From Pukyongia salina (GTDB taxonomy: Bacteria > Bacteroidota > Bacteroidia > Flavobacteriales > Flavobacteriaceae), in the NCBI RefSeq assembly GCF_002966125.1, contig NZ_CP027062.1, forward strand, positions 806,001-870,000: a DNA stretch of 64,000 nucleotides. The letters run 5' to 3'. Below the pieces are notes generated by a model. It was not told the DNA's origin and did no database searches. It saw only the letters and a program-made list of their open reading frames with translations. The position numbers and the translations under genes are program-made. This document shows, in pieces, positions 14,568-62,408 of the stretch (positions are counted from its first letter, which is position 1; each line of letters opens with the position of its first letter).

Positions 14568-14775
14568 AGGTCGAAATTTATATTAGTTGTAAATTTAATT
14601 TCAATCAACTCGGGAAACTATGATATTTCTCACCGGTATTATCGCAGCCGGATTTCAGAAGAAATTTGATAAATCATTGAGAATAGATAAGGTTCCCGCT
14701 ATGATTTTGTCTATCATTTAATTTACTGAAAGTGAATTTTAAATACAAATAAGGACGTCAAAAAATTGAAATTCA
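14568..14775. other. 208-base divergent intergenic region
   Basis: Holds the 5' ends of two divergent genes (membrane protein on the left, ArsC-like on the right). AT-rich; I find no -7 element matching TAnnTTTG well enough to call, and no open frame. Confidence 0.5.
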
Positions 14776-15141
14776 ATGGGAGAAATAGCAACTTCAGACA
14801 GACAAATAACGCTTTACTATAATTCTAAATCGGAAAGGGCCAAACAAACCATTGCCTATGCAGAATCGGAAGGATTTGCTTTGCTCAAGGTGGATGTTTT
14901 AAAAACCCCTTTAACAGGGACGCAGATTGCCGAGATTGCCAACAGGTTACAGCTAAAAATCGAGGATCTCGTAAATCAGGAACATCCGTCCTATTCGCAA
15001 CATTTCGAAAAGAGCAATCTATCTAGCGACGACTGGATAAAGATGATACGCAACAACCCCGAGATCTTGAAACAGCCTATTGCGATACGTGGCGACAGAA
15101 CCATCCTTGTTGAAACTCCTACAGATATTATCAAGATATAA
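14776..15141 (+). CDS. ArsC/Spx-fold protein lacking the catalytic cysteine
   Basis: 121 residues with the thioredoxin-like fold of arsenate reductase: an N-terminal strand ITLYYNSKSERAKQTIAYAE, a middle helical region, and the C-terminal PIAIRGDRTILVETP corresponding to PI-V-RGD---GRPP of ArsC. The position of the ArsC/Spx cysteine (normally NP-C---R or a CXXC) is Ser-Lys-Ser here, and there is no Cys anywhere in the protein. It therefore cannot be a thiol arsenate reductase and may be a binding or regulatory protein. Such degenerate relatives occur in Flavobacteriaceae; the function is unknown. Confidence 0.75.
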   Translation: MGEIATSDRQITLYYNSKSERAKQTIAYAESEGFALLKVDVLKTPLTGTQIAEIANRLQLKIEDLVNQEHPSYSQHFEKSNLSSDDWIKMIRNNPEILKQPIAIRGDRTILVETPTDIIKI

Positions 15142-15235
15142 AACGAGAATGTTATAATTTCTCGTTGATATTAATGGGCGAGGTGGGATAAATCTACTTA
15201 TTTTAATTTATCCGGACCGAATGTCTTTGAAGAAG

Positions 15236-15260
15236 TTAAAAGGTCTGGTAGACCTTTTAA
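15236..15260. repeat. Perfect inverted repeat downstream of the ArsC-like gene
   Basis: An 11-bp perfect stem, TTAAAAGGTCT / AGACCTTTTAA, around loop GGT. Its right arm contains TTTT, so it could be a terminator for the ArsC-like gene 95 bases upstream, but no further T-run follows. A second, shorter inverted repeat (AACGAGAA / TTCTCGTT, 15142-15166) directly abuts that gene's stop. Confidence 0.5.
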
Positions 15261-15311
15261 AATGAGGGGCCAGAAGGTGTGTAGGCAGGTGAGAGCCTAG
15301 AATACACAAAT

Positions 15312-15338
15312 AAAAACCCGAGCAGTGATGCTCGGGTT
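15312..15338 (-). terminator. Intrinsic terminator of tRNA-Gln
   Basis: Minus strand: AACCCGAGCA, loop TCAC, TGCTCGGGTT, then more T residues (TTTATTT). The 10-bp stem lies 8 bases after the tRNA 3' end. Confidence 0.88.
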
Positions 15339-15345
15339 AATAACG

Positions 15346-15418
15346 TTGGCCCACTAGGGCTCGAACCTAGACTCTTCTGGACCAAAACCAGACGTGTTGC
15401 CAGTTACACCATGGGCCA
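15346..15418 (-). tRNA. tRNA-Gln (anticodon TTG)
   Basis: 73 bases folding into a full cloverleaf: acceptor TGGCCCA / TGGGCCA with discriminator A, D-arm GTGT...ACAC, anticodon arm TCTGG-TTTTGGT-CCAGA with TTG at the anticodon, T-arm CTAGG-TTCGAGC-CCTAG. CCA is not encoded. A terminator follows. Immediately upstream (higher coordinates) stand seven copies of a 131-bp unit whose tRNA-like part derives from its 5' half. Confidence 0.96.
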
Positions 15419-16335
15419 ATAAATAATGTAATTTTCACAGATTAATTACAACTGTTTCCGTTATAAGTCTGGTTTTGAACCAGACCTGCCTACGGCAGGC
15501 ACGCGTGTTAGCCAGCGAGACCGCCTATGGCGGTTTACACCATGGGCCAATAAATAATGTAATTTTCACAGATTAATTACAACTGTTTCCGTTATAAGTC
15601 TGGTTTTGAACCAGACCTGCCTACGGCAGGCACGCGTGTTAGCCAGCGAGACCGCCTATGGCGGTTTACACCATGGGCCAATAAATAATGTAATTTTCAC
15701 AGATTAATTACAACTGTTTCCGTTATAAGTCTGGTTTTGAACCAGACCTGCCTACGGCAGGCACGCGTGTTGGCCAGCGAGACCGCCTATGGCGGTTTAC
15801 ACCATGGGCCAATTAATAATGTAATTTTCACAGATTAATTACAACTGTTTCCGTTATAAGTCTGGTTTTGAACCAGACCTGCCTACGGCAGGCACGCGTG
15901 TTAGCCAGCGAGACCGCCTATGGCGGTTTACACCATGGGCCAATAAATAATGTAATTTTCACAGATTAATTACAACTGTTTCCGTTATAAGTCTGGTTTT
16001 GAACCAGACCTGCCTACGGCAGGCACGCGTGTTGGCCAGCGAGACCGCCTATGGCGGTTTACACCATGGGCCAATAAATAATGTAATTTTCACAGATTAA
16101 TTACAACTGTTTCCGTTATAAGTCTGGTTTTGAACCAGACCTGCCTACGGCAGGCACGCGTGTTGGCCAGCGAGACCGCCTATGGCGGTTTACACCATGG
16201 GCCAATAAATAATGTAATTTTCACAGATTAATTACAACTGTTTCCGTTATAAGTCTGGTTTTGAACCAGACCTGCCTACGGCAGGCACGCGTGTTGGCCA
16301 GCGAGACCGCCTATGGCGGTTTACACCATGGGCCA
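15419..16335 (-). repeat. Array of seven exact 131-bp tandem repeats derived from the tRNA-Gln promoter and 5' half
   Basis: The motif ATGGGCCA recurs at 15411, 15542, 15673, 15804, 15935, 16066, 16197 and 16328, always 131 bases apart; 7 x 131 = 917 bases exactly fill the region. Units differ only at an A/G site (A in units beginning 15419, 15550 and 15812) and one A/T. Read on the minus strand each unit has: the first 15 bases of tRNA-Gln; a palindrome ACCGCC-ATA-GGCGGT inside the D-loop; the rest of the D-arm; a palindrome CCTGCC-GTA-GGCAGG; a hairpin GTCTGG-TTCAAAA-CCAGAC at the anticodon arm; then 49 AT-rich bases with the tRNA promoter. T-arm and 3' acceptor strand are missing, so no unit can make a mature tRNA. 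Whether the units are transcribed or have a role is unknown. Confidence 0.95.
15423..15451 (-). promoter_or_regulatory. Candidate tRNA-Gln promoter, repeated in every array unit
   Basis: Minus strand TTG (15449-15451), 18-base spacer, TACATTAT (15423-15430; consensus TAnnTTTG), placing initiation within a few bases of the tRNA 5' end. The same sequence occurs in all seven 131-bp units, each time directly before a tRNA-like 5' half. Confidence 0.45.
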
Positions 16336-16606
16336 ATACCATAATGTGGGCGCAAATTTAAGATAAAGTTTCGTTCACACAAACAAATTTCAGCAAAAAT
16401 AATTCTCTGCTGTGATTCTCCAACCCGCTAACCGTAAGCCAATCTTATTCAAAAACCCAGTCCCATCCAAAATAAAAGGTCTAGTACCTAATTCCACCCC
16501 CATATTCATGAAATAATGCCCTACTTCAACACGTTAGCATTTTTTTAGCAGTGCCCTTAGCCATATTATTAGTAAATTCGCCTCGACCAATAACGTTAAA
16601 CTTTAT
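16336..16606. other. 271-base intergenic region after the repeat array
   Basis: The repeat ends abruptly within GGGCCAATA. The rest is AT-rich, has no convincing open frame, tRNA or terminator, and should contain the promoter of the DUF2723 gene starting at 16607. Confidence 0.5.
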
Positions 16607-19600
16607 ATGTCCGATTTCAACTTCGTAAAATGGAATAAGATCTTAGGATGGACCGTCTTCGCCATCGCTTTACTTACTTACTGGCTCACGGTAGAACCAA
16701 CTGCCAGTTTCTGGGATGCCGGGGAATATATCACTACCGCCAGTAACTTGGAAGTAGGACATCCGCCTGGAGCACCTCTTTACCAGATCCTGGGGGCATT
16801 CTTTTCCATCTTCGCCATGGAACCAAACAGCATCGCCTTAACCATAAACCTGATGTCGGTCTTCGCAAGTGCCTTTACCATCCTTTTTATGTTTTGGTCC
16901 CTAACCATTCTAATCACAAATTTAGTGTCCAAACAGCAGGAGATCAATAAAAACACTGCTATGGCCATTCTAGGCAGTGCGTTTGTAGGGTCGCTAGCTT
17001 TTGCCTTTACCGATAGTTTCTGGTACAACGCTGTAGAAGCAGAAGTGTACGCCTCGGCCGCCTGTATCATGTCTATATTATTTTATGCCGGACTACGATG
17101 GGAGCGCGAAATGAACACCCCAAGAGGTGATCGCTGGGTTATCCTCATCGCTTTTATTATCGGTTTGTCATTCGGGGTGCATTTTATGGGATTATTAACG
17201 ATCCCGGCCATCGGATTTCTTTATTTCTTTAAAAATTATAAGACGATCACAGTAAAGAATTTTATAATCGCCAATATAGTGATGGTGGCGATTCTGCTTT
17301 TCATTTTCAAGCTATTACTGCCCATGACAATGAAATTTTTTAGTGCTTCGGAATTGTTCTTCGTTAACGATATTGGGTTACCTTTTAACTCGGGAACTAT
17401 CATTGCCGGACTACTATTTATCGCTTTATTCTATTACGGATTGAGAACCACTCGTAAGAAAGGATATGTTCGACTGAACACTTTGCTCCTATGTATCCTC
17501 TTCATTTTTATTGGGTTCTCCAGCTGGCTGATGCTGCCCATTCGTGCAAATGCTGGGGTGGTTATCAACGAAAACAACCCAAACAACGCCCGAGAACTAC
17601 TTGCTTATTATAATAGGGAGCAGTACCCCGAAACACATTTGTTTTACGGTCCACAATTCACCGAAACCTATGCAGGCCTGGATCCGGACAACCCTTATAA
17701 GGACGATAAACCCAAATACGAAAAAGATGAAAAAGCCGGAAAATACGTGATCGTAAACAATTACGAGAACGCCGGCCAGAATACGGACGATGCTCACAAA
17801 GCATTTCTCCCCAGGATGTGGAGCATAGAACACGCCGAGAATTATCTCGAATTTACCGATGGTTTGGAATTTACTATAAAACGTAAATACCGTAGTGAAG
17901 AGAGACTCATCGAAGAAGTAAACAAATTTAAGCAGGCGTACAACGAAGGCCTCGTAGACACAGAAGACTATCATACTTTCCTTTCTAATTTCGGCGGCTT
18001 CCTGGATATCGAAAAACCGTCCTTTGGGGATAATATGAAATTCATGTTCCAGTACCAGTTTGGTTATATGTACTGGAGATATTTTATGTGGAATTTTGCC
18101 GGCAGACAAAACGACGTTCAGGGACAACTGGACGACCTGAACGGCAACTGGCTGAGCGGTATAAAGTTTATCGATGAAATATTCCTGGGTTCCCAGGATA
18201 ACTTGCCTAGCGACGTAAAAAATAACAAAGCCAGGAATACCTATTATTTCCTTCCATTGTTACTAGGTATAATAGGCCTGATGTTCCACTTTATGAACGA
18301 TAAAAAGACCTTCTGGGTATTACTGGTCTTCTTCCTCTTTACAGGTCTGGCATTGAAAGTCTACCTCAACGAACGACCCTTCGAACCACGAGAAAGAGAC
18401 TATGCCCTCGTAGGATCTTTCTATGTATTTGCCATGTGGATAGGATATGGGGTCTATGCCCTGTATGAGATCGTTAAGGATTATTTAAAACCAAAAATCG
18501 CCCTCCCGGTTGTGCTTACACTAACCATGCTAGCCGCCCCTGTGATCCTGGCGACACAGAACTGGGATGACCACGATCGCTCAAATAGATACACGGCCCA
18601 ATCCATGGGTAAAATGTACCTGGATTCCTGCGACGAGAACGCCATATTATTTACCATTGGTGATAACGATACCTTCGCCTTGTGGTATGCACAGAATATT
18701 GAGGGTTATAGAAGGGACGTGCGTATAATCAATACGAGTTTATTTCAAACAGACTGGTATATAGACGATATGAAGAAGAAGGCCTGGAGCAGTGACCCTA
18801 TTCCTTCTCAACTTACACACGACGACTATAAATTTGGCTCAAGAGATTTCCTATTCTATCAGGAAACCACACAGGATACTATCGATATTAAAAAATGGAT
18901 GAACTGGGTTGCCAACGACAGTCCGGCAACTACCTTCGCCCTGGAAAGCGGGCAAATAGCCAATACTTTTCCATCAAAGATAATTCGAATCCCTGTAGAC
19001 AAAGAGGCCGTACTGCGAAATGGTATTGTGCCCGAAAAGGACGCCGATCTTATTGTACCCTACATCGATATTAAACTCAAAGGAGATATCCTTTACAAGA
19101 ACAGGATGATGATGCTAGATATCATTGCCAATAATAACTGGGAACGCCCTATATATTTCAGTGGGGGTAGTTTTGGCGACGACGATTATCTATGGATGAA
19201 AGATTACTTGCAACAGGATGGTGTTGCTTATAAACTAGTGCCTATCTATACCCCTGTTGATAAGCGTAATCCTTTCGATATGGGCCGTATCGATACCGAA
19301 AAGATGTACGAAGTTGTGATGAGTTGGGATTGGGGAAATAGTGGCAGTCCGGATATCTATCACGATACCGAAACACGACGCAATGGAATCACGTACAGAA
19401 GTAATTTAGCCCGCCTGGCAGAAGCTCTTATCAATGAAGGAGAAAATGAGAAAGCCGAGAAAATCCTGGATCTGGCGATGGAAAAAATGCCTGTTAAATA
19501 CTTCGAGTATTATTCACTTCTTGAGCCTTACATTCTTGGATATTACGAATTAGATAAACCCGAAAAAGCGCGTGCCATCTTCGAGGAAGTTTCAAAAAAG

Positions 19601-62017: not shown

Positions 62018-62268
62018 CGCTCCTTGATCCCAATAGACAATGCTGGCAATGAACATAGATGCTGCGCATCTTCAAGTTACTCGCTCAATCTCAGGATTAA
62101 CTCGCTTCGCTCCTTGATCCCAAAAGACAATGCTGGCAATGAACATAGATGCTGCGCATCTTCAAGTTACTCGCTCAATCCTCGGGATAAACTCGCTTCG
62201 CTCCTTGATCCCAATAGACAATGCTGGCAATGAACATAGATGCTGCGCATCTCCAAGTTACTCGCTCA
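62018..62268. repeat. Three tandem copies of a 90-91-bp repeat downstream of tRNA-Ser
   Basis: Units begin at 62018, 62108 and 62199 with CGCTCCTTGATCCCAA and continue with near identity through GATGCTGCGCATC, itself a hairpin (GATGC-TGC-GCATC). Differences are a few single bases and one insertion; the third unit is cut short. Open frames crossing it (for example 62024-62233) simply repeat the unit and look non-coding. Confidence 0.9.
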
Positions 62269-62320
62269 AAATTTGCTCAAGCAAGCTTGGACAAATTCTT
62301 TCGCTCGTAACTTCCATTCG

Positions 62321-62408
62321 CAGAGAGGAAGGGATTCGAACCCTCGATACGCTTTTGGCGTATACACACTTTCCAGGCGTGCGCCTTCGACCACTCGGCC
62401 ACCTCTCT
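62321..62408 (-). tRNA. tRNA-Ser (anticodon GGA)
   Basis: 88 bases, type II tRNA. Acceptor AGAGAGG / CCTCTCT with discriminator G, D-arm, anticodon loop CTGGAAA (GGA), a long variable arm (TATACGCC...GCGTAT) and T-arm GAGGG-TTCGAAT-CCCTT. CCA not encoded. Reads UCC/UCU serine codons. Confidence 0.96.

Follow-up and report, generated by a model that had tools for sequence, protein, structure and literature searches.

Tandem, hairpin-rich copies of the 5' part of tRNA-Gln between promoter and tRNA gene in Pukyongia salina: a candidate tRNA-precursor leader

The chromosome of Pukyongia salina has been assembled as a single contig of 3.18 Mb, of which positions 806001-870000 (64,000 nucleotides, here called the window) were analysed. 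As the genome consists of one contig, the array described below is clear of any contig break. In silico analysis of the minus strand revealed that TGGCCCATGGTG begins eight times at exact 131-base steps, corresponding to seven units and the intact tRNA-Gln. The array spans exactly 15419-16335 (917 = 7 x 131), directly upstream of tRNA-Gln(UUG), and is described by Tandem Repeats Finder with a period of 131, 7.2 copies, 99% matches and a score of 1844, far beyond chance. A preceding sequence-only reading had proposed seven 131-bp units with eight anchor starts, derived from the adjacent tRNA-Gln and lying upstream of it on the same strand; all of this is borne out. The elements of the locus are the following:

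15312-15336, minus: terminator-like hairpin CCCGAGC...GCTCGGG followed by a T run, just after the tRNA (sequence reading)
15345-15418, minus: intact tRNA-Gln, anticodon TTG (ARAGORN; Rfam tRNA, 62.2 bits)
15419-15549, minus: unit 7, adjoining the tRNA, T at position 40
15550-15680, minus: unit 6, T at position 40
15681-15811, minus: unit 5, C at position 40
15812-15942, minus: unit 4, T at position 40, A at position 129
15943-16073, minus: unit 3, C at position 40
16074-16204, minus: unit 2, C at position 40
16205-16335, minus: unit 1, most distant from the tRNA, C at position 40
16306-16320 (unit 1), minus: hairpin ACCGCC-ATA-GGCGGT inserted in the D-loop, one per unit
16271-16285 (unit 1), minus: hairpin CCTGCC-GTA-GGCAGG between D stem and anticodon stem, one per unit
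16253-16271 (unit 1), minus: palindromic anticodon arm GTCTGGTT-CAA-AACCAGAC, one per unit
16205-16252 (unit 1), minus: 48-nt leader ending at the next unit (in unit 7, at the tRNA)
16336-16352, minus: distal leader of 17 nt
16353-16382, minus: tRNA-Gln promoter, TTG (16382-16380), 19 nt, TAAATTTG (16360-16353)

Along the minus strand each unit is composed of: (i) TGGCCCATGGTGTAA, identical to the tRNA; (ii) the D-loop hairpin; (iii) the rest of the D-arm, CTGGCC(or T)AACACG; (iv) the hairpin CCTGCC-GTA-GGCAGG; (v) GTCTGGTTCAAAACCAGAC; and (vi) the 48-nt leader. Judged by its letters, GTCTGGTTCAAAACCAGAC is an anticodon arm that has become a palindrome and carries its loop inverted; by sequence reading it differs at two positions from the inverted tRNA arm and at five from the arm in normal orientation. 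On its 3' side, this palindromic arm reads antisense to that of the intact tRNA. The T-arm and the 3' acceptor strand are missing from the units, as had been stated before, whereas the accompanying claim that a unit retains the first 15 tRNA bases falls short, D-arm and anticodon-arm sequence being present as well. The units do not qualify as functional tRNAs, ARAGORN and Rfam calling only the intact tRNA-Gln here as a tRNA, and the latter is the sole tRNA-Gln among the 33 tRNA genes examined (Rfam total: 36). No origin of the 48-nt leader in the promoter region could be detected, since 160 of 500 shuffles aligned equally well. Variation among the seven units is confined to positions 40 and 129, the two varying sites counted earlier. 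Read from unit 1 to unit 7, position 40 is C,C,C,T,C,T,T, an order that fits no simple doubling, and position 129 is A in unit 4 and T in the others. The previous suggestion of a homogenised or recently amplified array is supported.

A copy of the tRNA promoter had also been assigned to every unit, and this claim fails. A promoter matrix trained on the tRNA-Gln promoters of 34 unit-less relatives (training minimum 38.0) gives a score of 42.7 at 16360-16353, beyond the farthest unit, and -45.0 for the best listed site within the array. In these 34 relatives the TAAATTTG-type box ends 16-19 nt before the tRNA (17 nt in 29 of them); in the window it sits 17 nt before unit 1. A relaxed search for TTG-N17-21-TAnnTTTG returned two perfect sites, 16382-16353 and 16423-16394, both located beyond the array, and a single site per unit, TTG-N18-TACATTAT, which has two mismatches. 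Matrix score and relaxed consensus search together reject a promoter within the units. Because the strong promoter lies only beyond unit 1, promoter, units, tRNA and terminator probably form a single transcript. Read-through from the array into the tRNA, as envisaged by the sequence-only reading, is thereby supported and made even more likely, the promoter being situated beyond the array and in none of the units.

Relatives had been named as the place to look for absence of the array; homologous units were in fact found in other species and in a second genus. Among the six other Pukyongia genomes, three MAGs (G003, G004 and G005) carry one unit at the same place and three carry none; the single copy in the MAGs may be a collapsed assembly of an array. 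The unit of G003 is the same as window units 1, 2, 3 and 5, and that of G004 departs mainly in the hairpin loops, linkers and leader. Position 40 is T in G005 and C in G003 and G004, so this variant may predate the species or have arisen twice. The unit is dispensable, because it is missing from closer genera and from half of those six genomes. In the distant genus g185 (17 genomes), four genomes possess one unit in the corresponding position, six have a tRNA-Gln with no unit and seven gave no match. Together with the three preceding bases, three of the g185 units measure 133-134 nt, as in Pukyongia, and one 115. The unit of G194 is without the D-loop hairpin present in G433, and its 5' end is that of its own tRNA, which looks like a case of gene conversion with the tRNA. 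At L144 (genome G429) there is no unit, yet a long leader precedes the tRNA-Gln; its end is similar to the unit leader in G194 and G433 and is perhaps the trace of a lost unit. Two units used as query gave no match in phage and plasmid records.

A two-start pattern applied to 397 genomes of the family (237 genera) matched 25, and tRNA-Gln units were identified in just four of them: the window genome (G000), G004, G370 and G194. Two further matches led to tRNA-Pro units. In the remaining 19 genomes, the loci looked at, a subset of the matches, hold no tRNA, and many of the matches read like coding repeats. In a tree with 52 rows, built from the first 300 aa encoded by the adjacent gene (TMEM260-like according to Pfam), starred branches part g185 from Pukyongia, many unit-less genera lie between the two, and the unit label needs five changes, at least three of them forced. 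The hairpin sites and the inverted loop are shared and the lengths are nearly equal, which argues for one origin of the Gln units of Pukyongia and g185 with many losses; repeated origin through a common mutational route is the other possibility. Loss of a unit should be easy, as recombination at the 5' end common to unit and tRNA would restore the simple gene.

For the conservation analysis, the hairpin segment was taken from base 16 to the anticodon arm, including 12 D-arm bases, and the pair G194-G433 was left out, given the missing D-loop hairpin of G194. Between the window genome and G004 the identity is 39/51 (76%) in the hairpin segment, 43/49 (88%) in the leader and 31/38 (82%) in the promoter, against 45/98 (46%) in the upstream flank and 75/134 (56%) in the downstream flank, where shuffled medians are 48-53%; the four-fold sites of the neighbouring gene agree at 38/110. 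The unit thus exceeds the upstream flank with p = 1.4e-7 and the downstream flank with p = 2.4e-5, and the comparisons with G003 and G005 have the same sign (p = 2.5e-6 and 0.0063), which holds against both flanks. The region downstream is only 52% identical even in the close pair G000-G003, indicating that downstream regions are unusually labile here and that the upstream flank gives the fairer comparison. In g185, the unit shows 79/98 and the upstream region 65/80 for G370-G432 (p = 1), and 73/102 and 58/80 for G432-G433 (p = 1), with the downstream flank exceeded at p = 8.3e-5 and 0.015, respectively. The corresponding four-fold sites agree at 33/113 and 41/121, and the G432-G433 leader identity is merely 62%. 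The Pukyongia unit is therefore conserved above both flanks and the g185 unit above the downstream flank only. Gene conversion from the tRNA as source can explain the conservation of the tRNA-like parts.

All seven units have negative folding z-scores (-2.8 to -4.5). In the named stems 98.9% of the cells are paired over eight rows, compared with 96.3% in shuffles, none of 500 being as high. Changes on both sides were observed in nine cells and three pairs; 193 of 500 shuffles reach as many such pairs, and all 500 match the count of further pair types. The support from covariation is moderate and derives from few independent events, mainly one split between Pukyongia and g185. Folding of the unit together with the tRNA predicts an interplay. 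The predicted probability of the acceptor stem is 0.99 with a leader of 17 nt and 0.00-0.06 with one unit in seven of the eight unit-bearing genomes; shuffled units average 0.30-0.50 in those seven and 0.30-0.64 over all eight. The exception is G370, with an acceptor stem of 0.86, a gap of 1.0 and no unit pairing. In the other seven the competing fold is favoured by 2.1-7.9 kcal/mol, and replacing the inverted arm by the tRNA's own arm lowers the gap to 1.0-4.6 in six of them and to 0.0 in G432. The inverted arm accounts, in these models, for much of the acceptor-stem loss.

Similar units precede another tRNA. Units derived from tRNA-Pro(TGG) lie directly upstream of the intact tRNA-Pro in G344, G313, G239, G306, G060, G191, G404 and G149, and most of them carry a D-loop hairpin. 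G068 has a row of three units, each about 127 bp long and with its anticodon arm palindromic, that run toward a contig end, and the stretch examined contains no tRNA-Pro. This brings the tRNA-Pro units to nine genera in total, eight of them with an intact tRNA-Pro; two of the ten matches in the scan (G088 and G296) represent two complete tRNA-Pro genes and were excluded. At L114, L123, L147-L153 and L155, the tRNA-Pro 5'-part units have very different D-loop stems, most of which are still paired. The predicted gap of the tRNA-Pro units is 0.0-0.4 in six of eight, 4.4 in G239 and 1.8 in G149, while shuffled units average 0.7-3.7. Several Pro units pair their 5' acceptor strand with an ACTCC(G) inside the unit, and the Gln units of Pukyongia pair TTGGCC with GGCC(or T)AA, so that units may have evolved to close on themselves.

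On balance, it is probable that the array represents a hairpin-rich, structured, co-transcribed 5' leader of the tRNA-Gln precursor, arisen by partial tandem duplication and recently multiplied. The reading builds on the anatomy, the promoter position, the homologues, the above-flank conservation within Pukyongia and the maintained stems observed in the sequences. The 5' two-thirds of the tRNA gene would have been duplicated in tandem, and the duplicate would have diverged into a compact multi-hairpin unit. Several lineages would have retained one copy; in the window genome, unequal recombination or slippage would have raised the number to seven, recombination being the presumed amplifier. Transcription would start at the ancestral promoter beyond unit 1, cross units and tRNA and end at the terminator. 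As the units have no 3' acceptor strand, RNase P would be expected to cut only at the real tRNA and to free a leader of about 0.9 kb. The second perfect consensus promoter match further out, at 16423-16394, counts against this model. Similar copies beside tRNA genes of other genera make the half-copies look like a recurrent, partly conserved leader, not a one-off accident. They would form a 5'-side class, which here separates the promoter from an apparently single-copy tRNA-Gln and which occurs with two tRNA species in eleven genera (two Gln, nine Pro). This recurrence points either to a functional leader RNA or to a mutational route that time and again converts tRNA halves into arrays of hairpins.

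A neutral origin is possible, with a lower probability than the leader reading: a decayed partial tRNA duplication, expanded and removed by recombination and tolerated because the leader gets trimmed, would have no function, its hairpins having formed through template switching at tRNA stem-loops. Copy numbers of 0, 1 or 7 among relatives with clean absence in many, the g185 unit conserved no better than its upstream region, and 3'-end fragment arrays at three of the 33 tRNA genes of the window genome all agree with such decay, and a variable-number repeat of this sort is known in rtT (PMC2658671). A neutral by-product would not, however, be expected to keep hairpin segment and leader 76-88% identical to G004 beside flanks near the shuffled level, to maintain stems by double changes and G-U pairs, or to share one architecture between two distant genera. 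Like a tRNA pseudogene or truncated copy, the units are recognisable and cannot form a tRNA; they differ from one in the inserted hairpins, the tandem amplification, the conservation above flanks in Pukyongia and the recurrence in separate genera.

The folding predictions admit a regulatory reading, in which the inverted anticodon arm of the unit captures that of the tRNA, leader and cloverleaf become mutually exclusive, and the leader tunes tRNA-Gln maturation. The near-complete predicted loss of the acceptor stem in seven of eight genomes, the shrinkage of the competing-fold gap on restoring the tRNA's own arm and an antisense stretch that tracks the G-C to A-U change of the tRNA in g185 are consistent with it. 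The effect is nevertheless absent in G370, the control arms retain a gap of 1.0-4.6 in seven of eight genomes, and six of eight tRNA-Pro units exhibit little or none of it. Moreover, thermodynamic folding ignores co-transcriptional order, tertiary contacts of the tRNA and modification, and strong blocking would be costly with a sole tRNA-Gln among the 33 tRNA genes examined; such a switch is unlikely. Equally doubtful is its extension to a self-antagonising tRNA precursor, whose unit copy number (0, 1 or 7) would set the strength of the exclusion between leader and cloverleaf. Very improbable is a movement of REP/BIME-like palindromes into tRNA copies by a RAYT (Y1) transposase. The array does resemble REP/BIME in its perfect short palindromes in tandem, with perfect-stem, short-loop hairpins inserted at fixed places. 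Its palindromes are, in contrast, undispersed, CTGCCNNNGGCAG being present at nine places in 3.18 Mb, seven of them within the array, and a reversed control pattern at three places, and PF01797 has no match in the genome, the same search being positive in five of 14 control genomes. As an active process in the window genome REP/RAYT is rejected, with no Y1 transposase match and no genome-wide palindrome family; an ancestral insertion would be compatible with these results.

Known tRNA-associated repeats are mainly copies of the 3' end, located downstream. The rtT of Escherichia and Salmonella (RtT RNA, Rfam RF00391) consists of tandem repeats shorter than 200 bp located downstream of a tRNA gene, each including part of that tRNA, namely its 3' end. 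The tRNA-precursor spacer 3'ETS-leuZ is freed by processing and acts as a sponge of small RNAs. The proposed leader would likewise be a tRNA-precursor spacer; unlike 3'ETS-leuZ, it stands on the 5' side, is derived from the tRNA and is tandemly repeated. Like rtT, the array is built of tandem units that include part of the neighbouring tRNA, but this part comprises the 5' two-thirds and is placed upstream, between promoter and tRNA. A cmscan of 14700-16700 gave no RtT match to E 1, only the tRNA and an anti-hemB hit below gathering score, and none was found in six related loci to E 0.5, where all hits besides the tRNA were below gathering score. Owing to its 5' side and the missing Rfam match, the array, as classified by sequence, is not a member of RtT. 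In S. Paratyphi A, a 175-bp rtT VNTR differs in copy number between strains (PMC2658671). Among the papers listed by searches of the open-access literature on tandem or partial tRNA repeats, REP and tRNA, tRNA-precursor spacers and the genus, none was seen to describe 5'-half tRNA arrays.

Within 1.4 kb or less of the 33 tRNA genes examined in the window genome, one has upstream 5' copies and three have downstream 3' copies, these being tRNA-Ala(ggc), tRNA-Ser(tga) and, weakly, tRNA-Arg(tct). The arrays at tRNA-Ala and tRNA-Ser resemble rtT most. At L048 (1501-2100), an rtT-like 3' array follows tRNA-Ala(GGC): its tandem units measure about 171 bp, and each contains approximately the last 17 tRNA bases and a terminator-like hairpin. 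At L060, the 3' end of tRNA-Ser(TGA) occurs three times downstream of the gene, spaced 172-174 bp apart, with a terminator-like hairpin after two of these copies, and L033, downstream of tRNA-Arg(TCT), holds a long hairpin array, CAGGATCACGAACGAAGTGAGTAATCCTG, similar to a T-arm whose loop is enlarged. The 3' end of tRNA-Gln recurs downstream of the intact gene in 12 of 56 rows: this second copy (13-17 of 17 bases) is located 85-272 nt downstream in L003, L004, L008, L009, L011, L016, L018, L081, L084, L096, L100 and L102, and a terminator-like hairpin is visible after it in L004, L016 and L084. Elsewhere in the window, a small ORF at 14776-15141 has a Pfam ArsC match barely over the cut-off (25.3 vs 24 bits). 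Directly downstream of tRNA-Ser(GGA) (62320-62408, minus) lies a 91-bp tandem repeat of 2.8 copies (62018-62269) with GGATAAACTCGCTT-like pieces.
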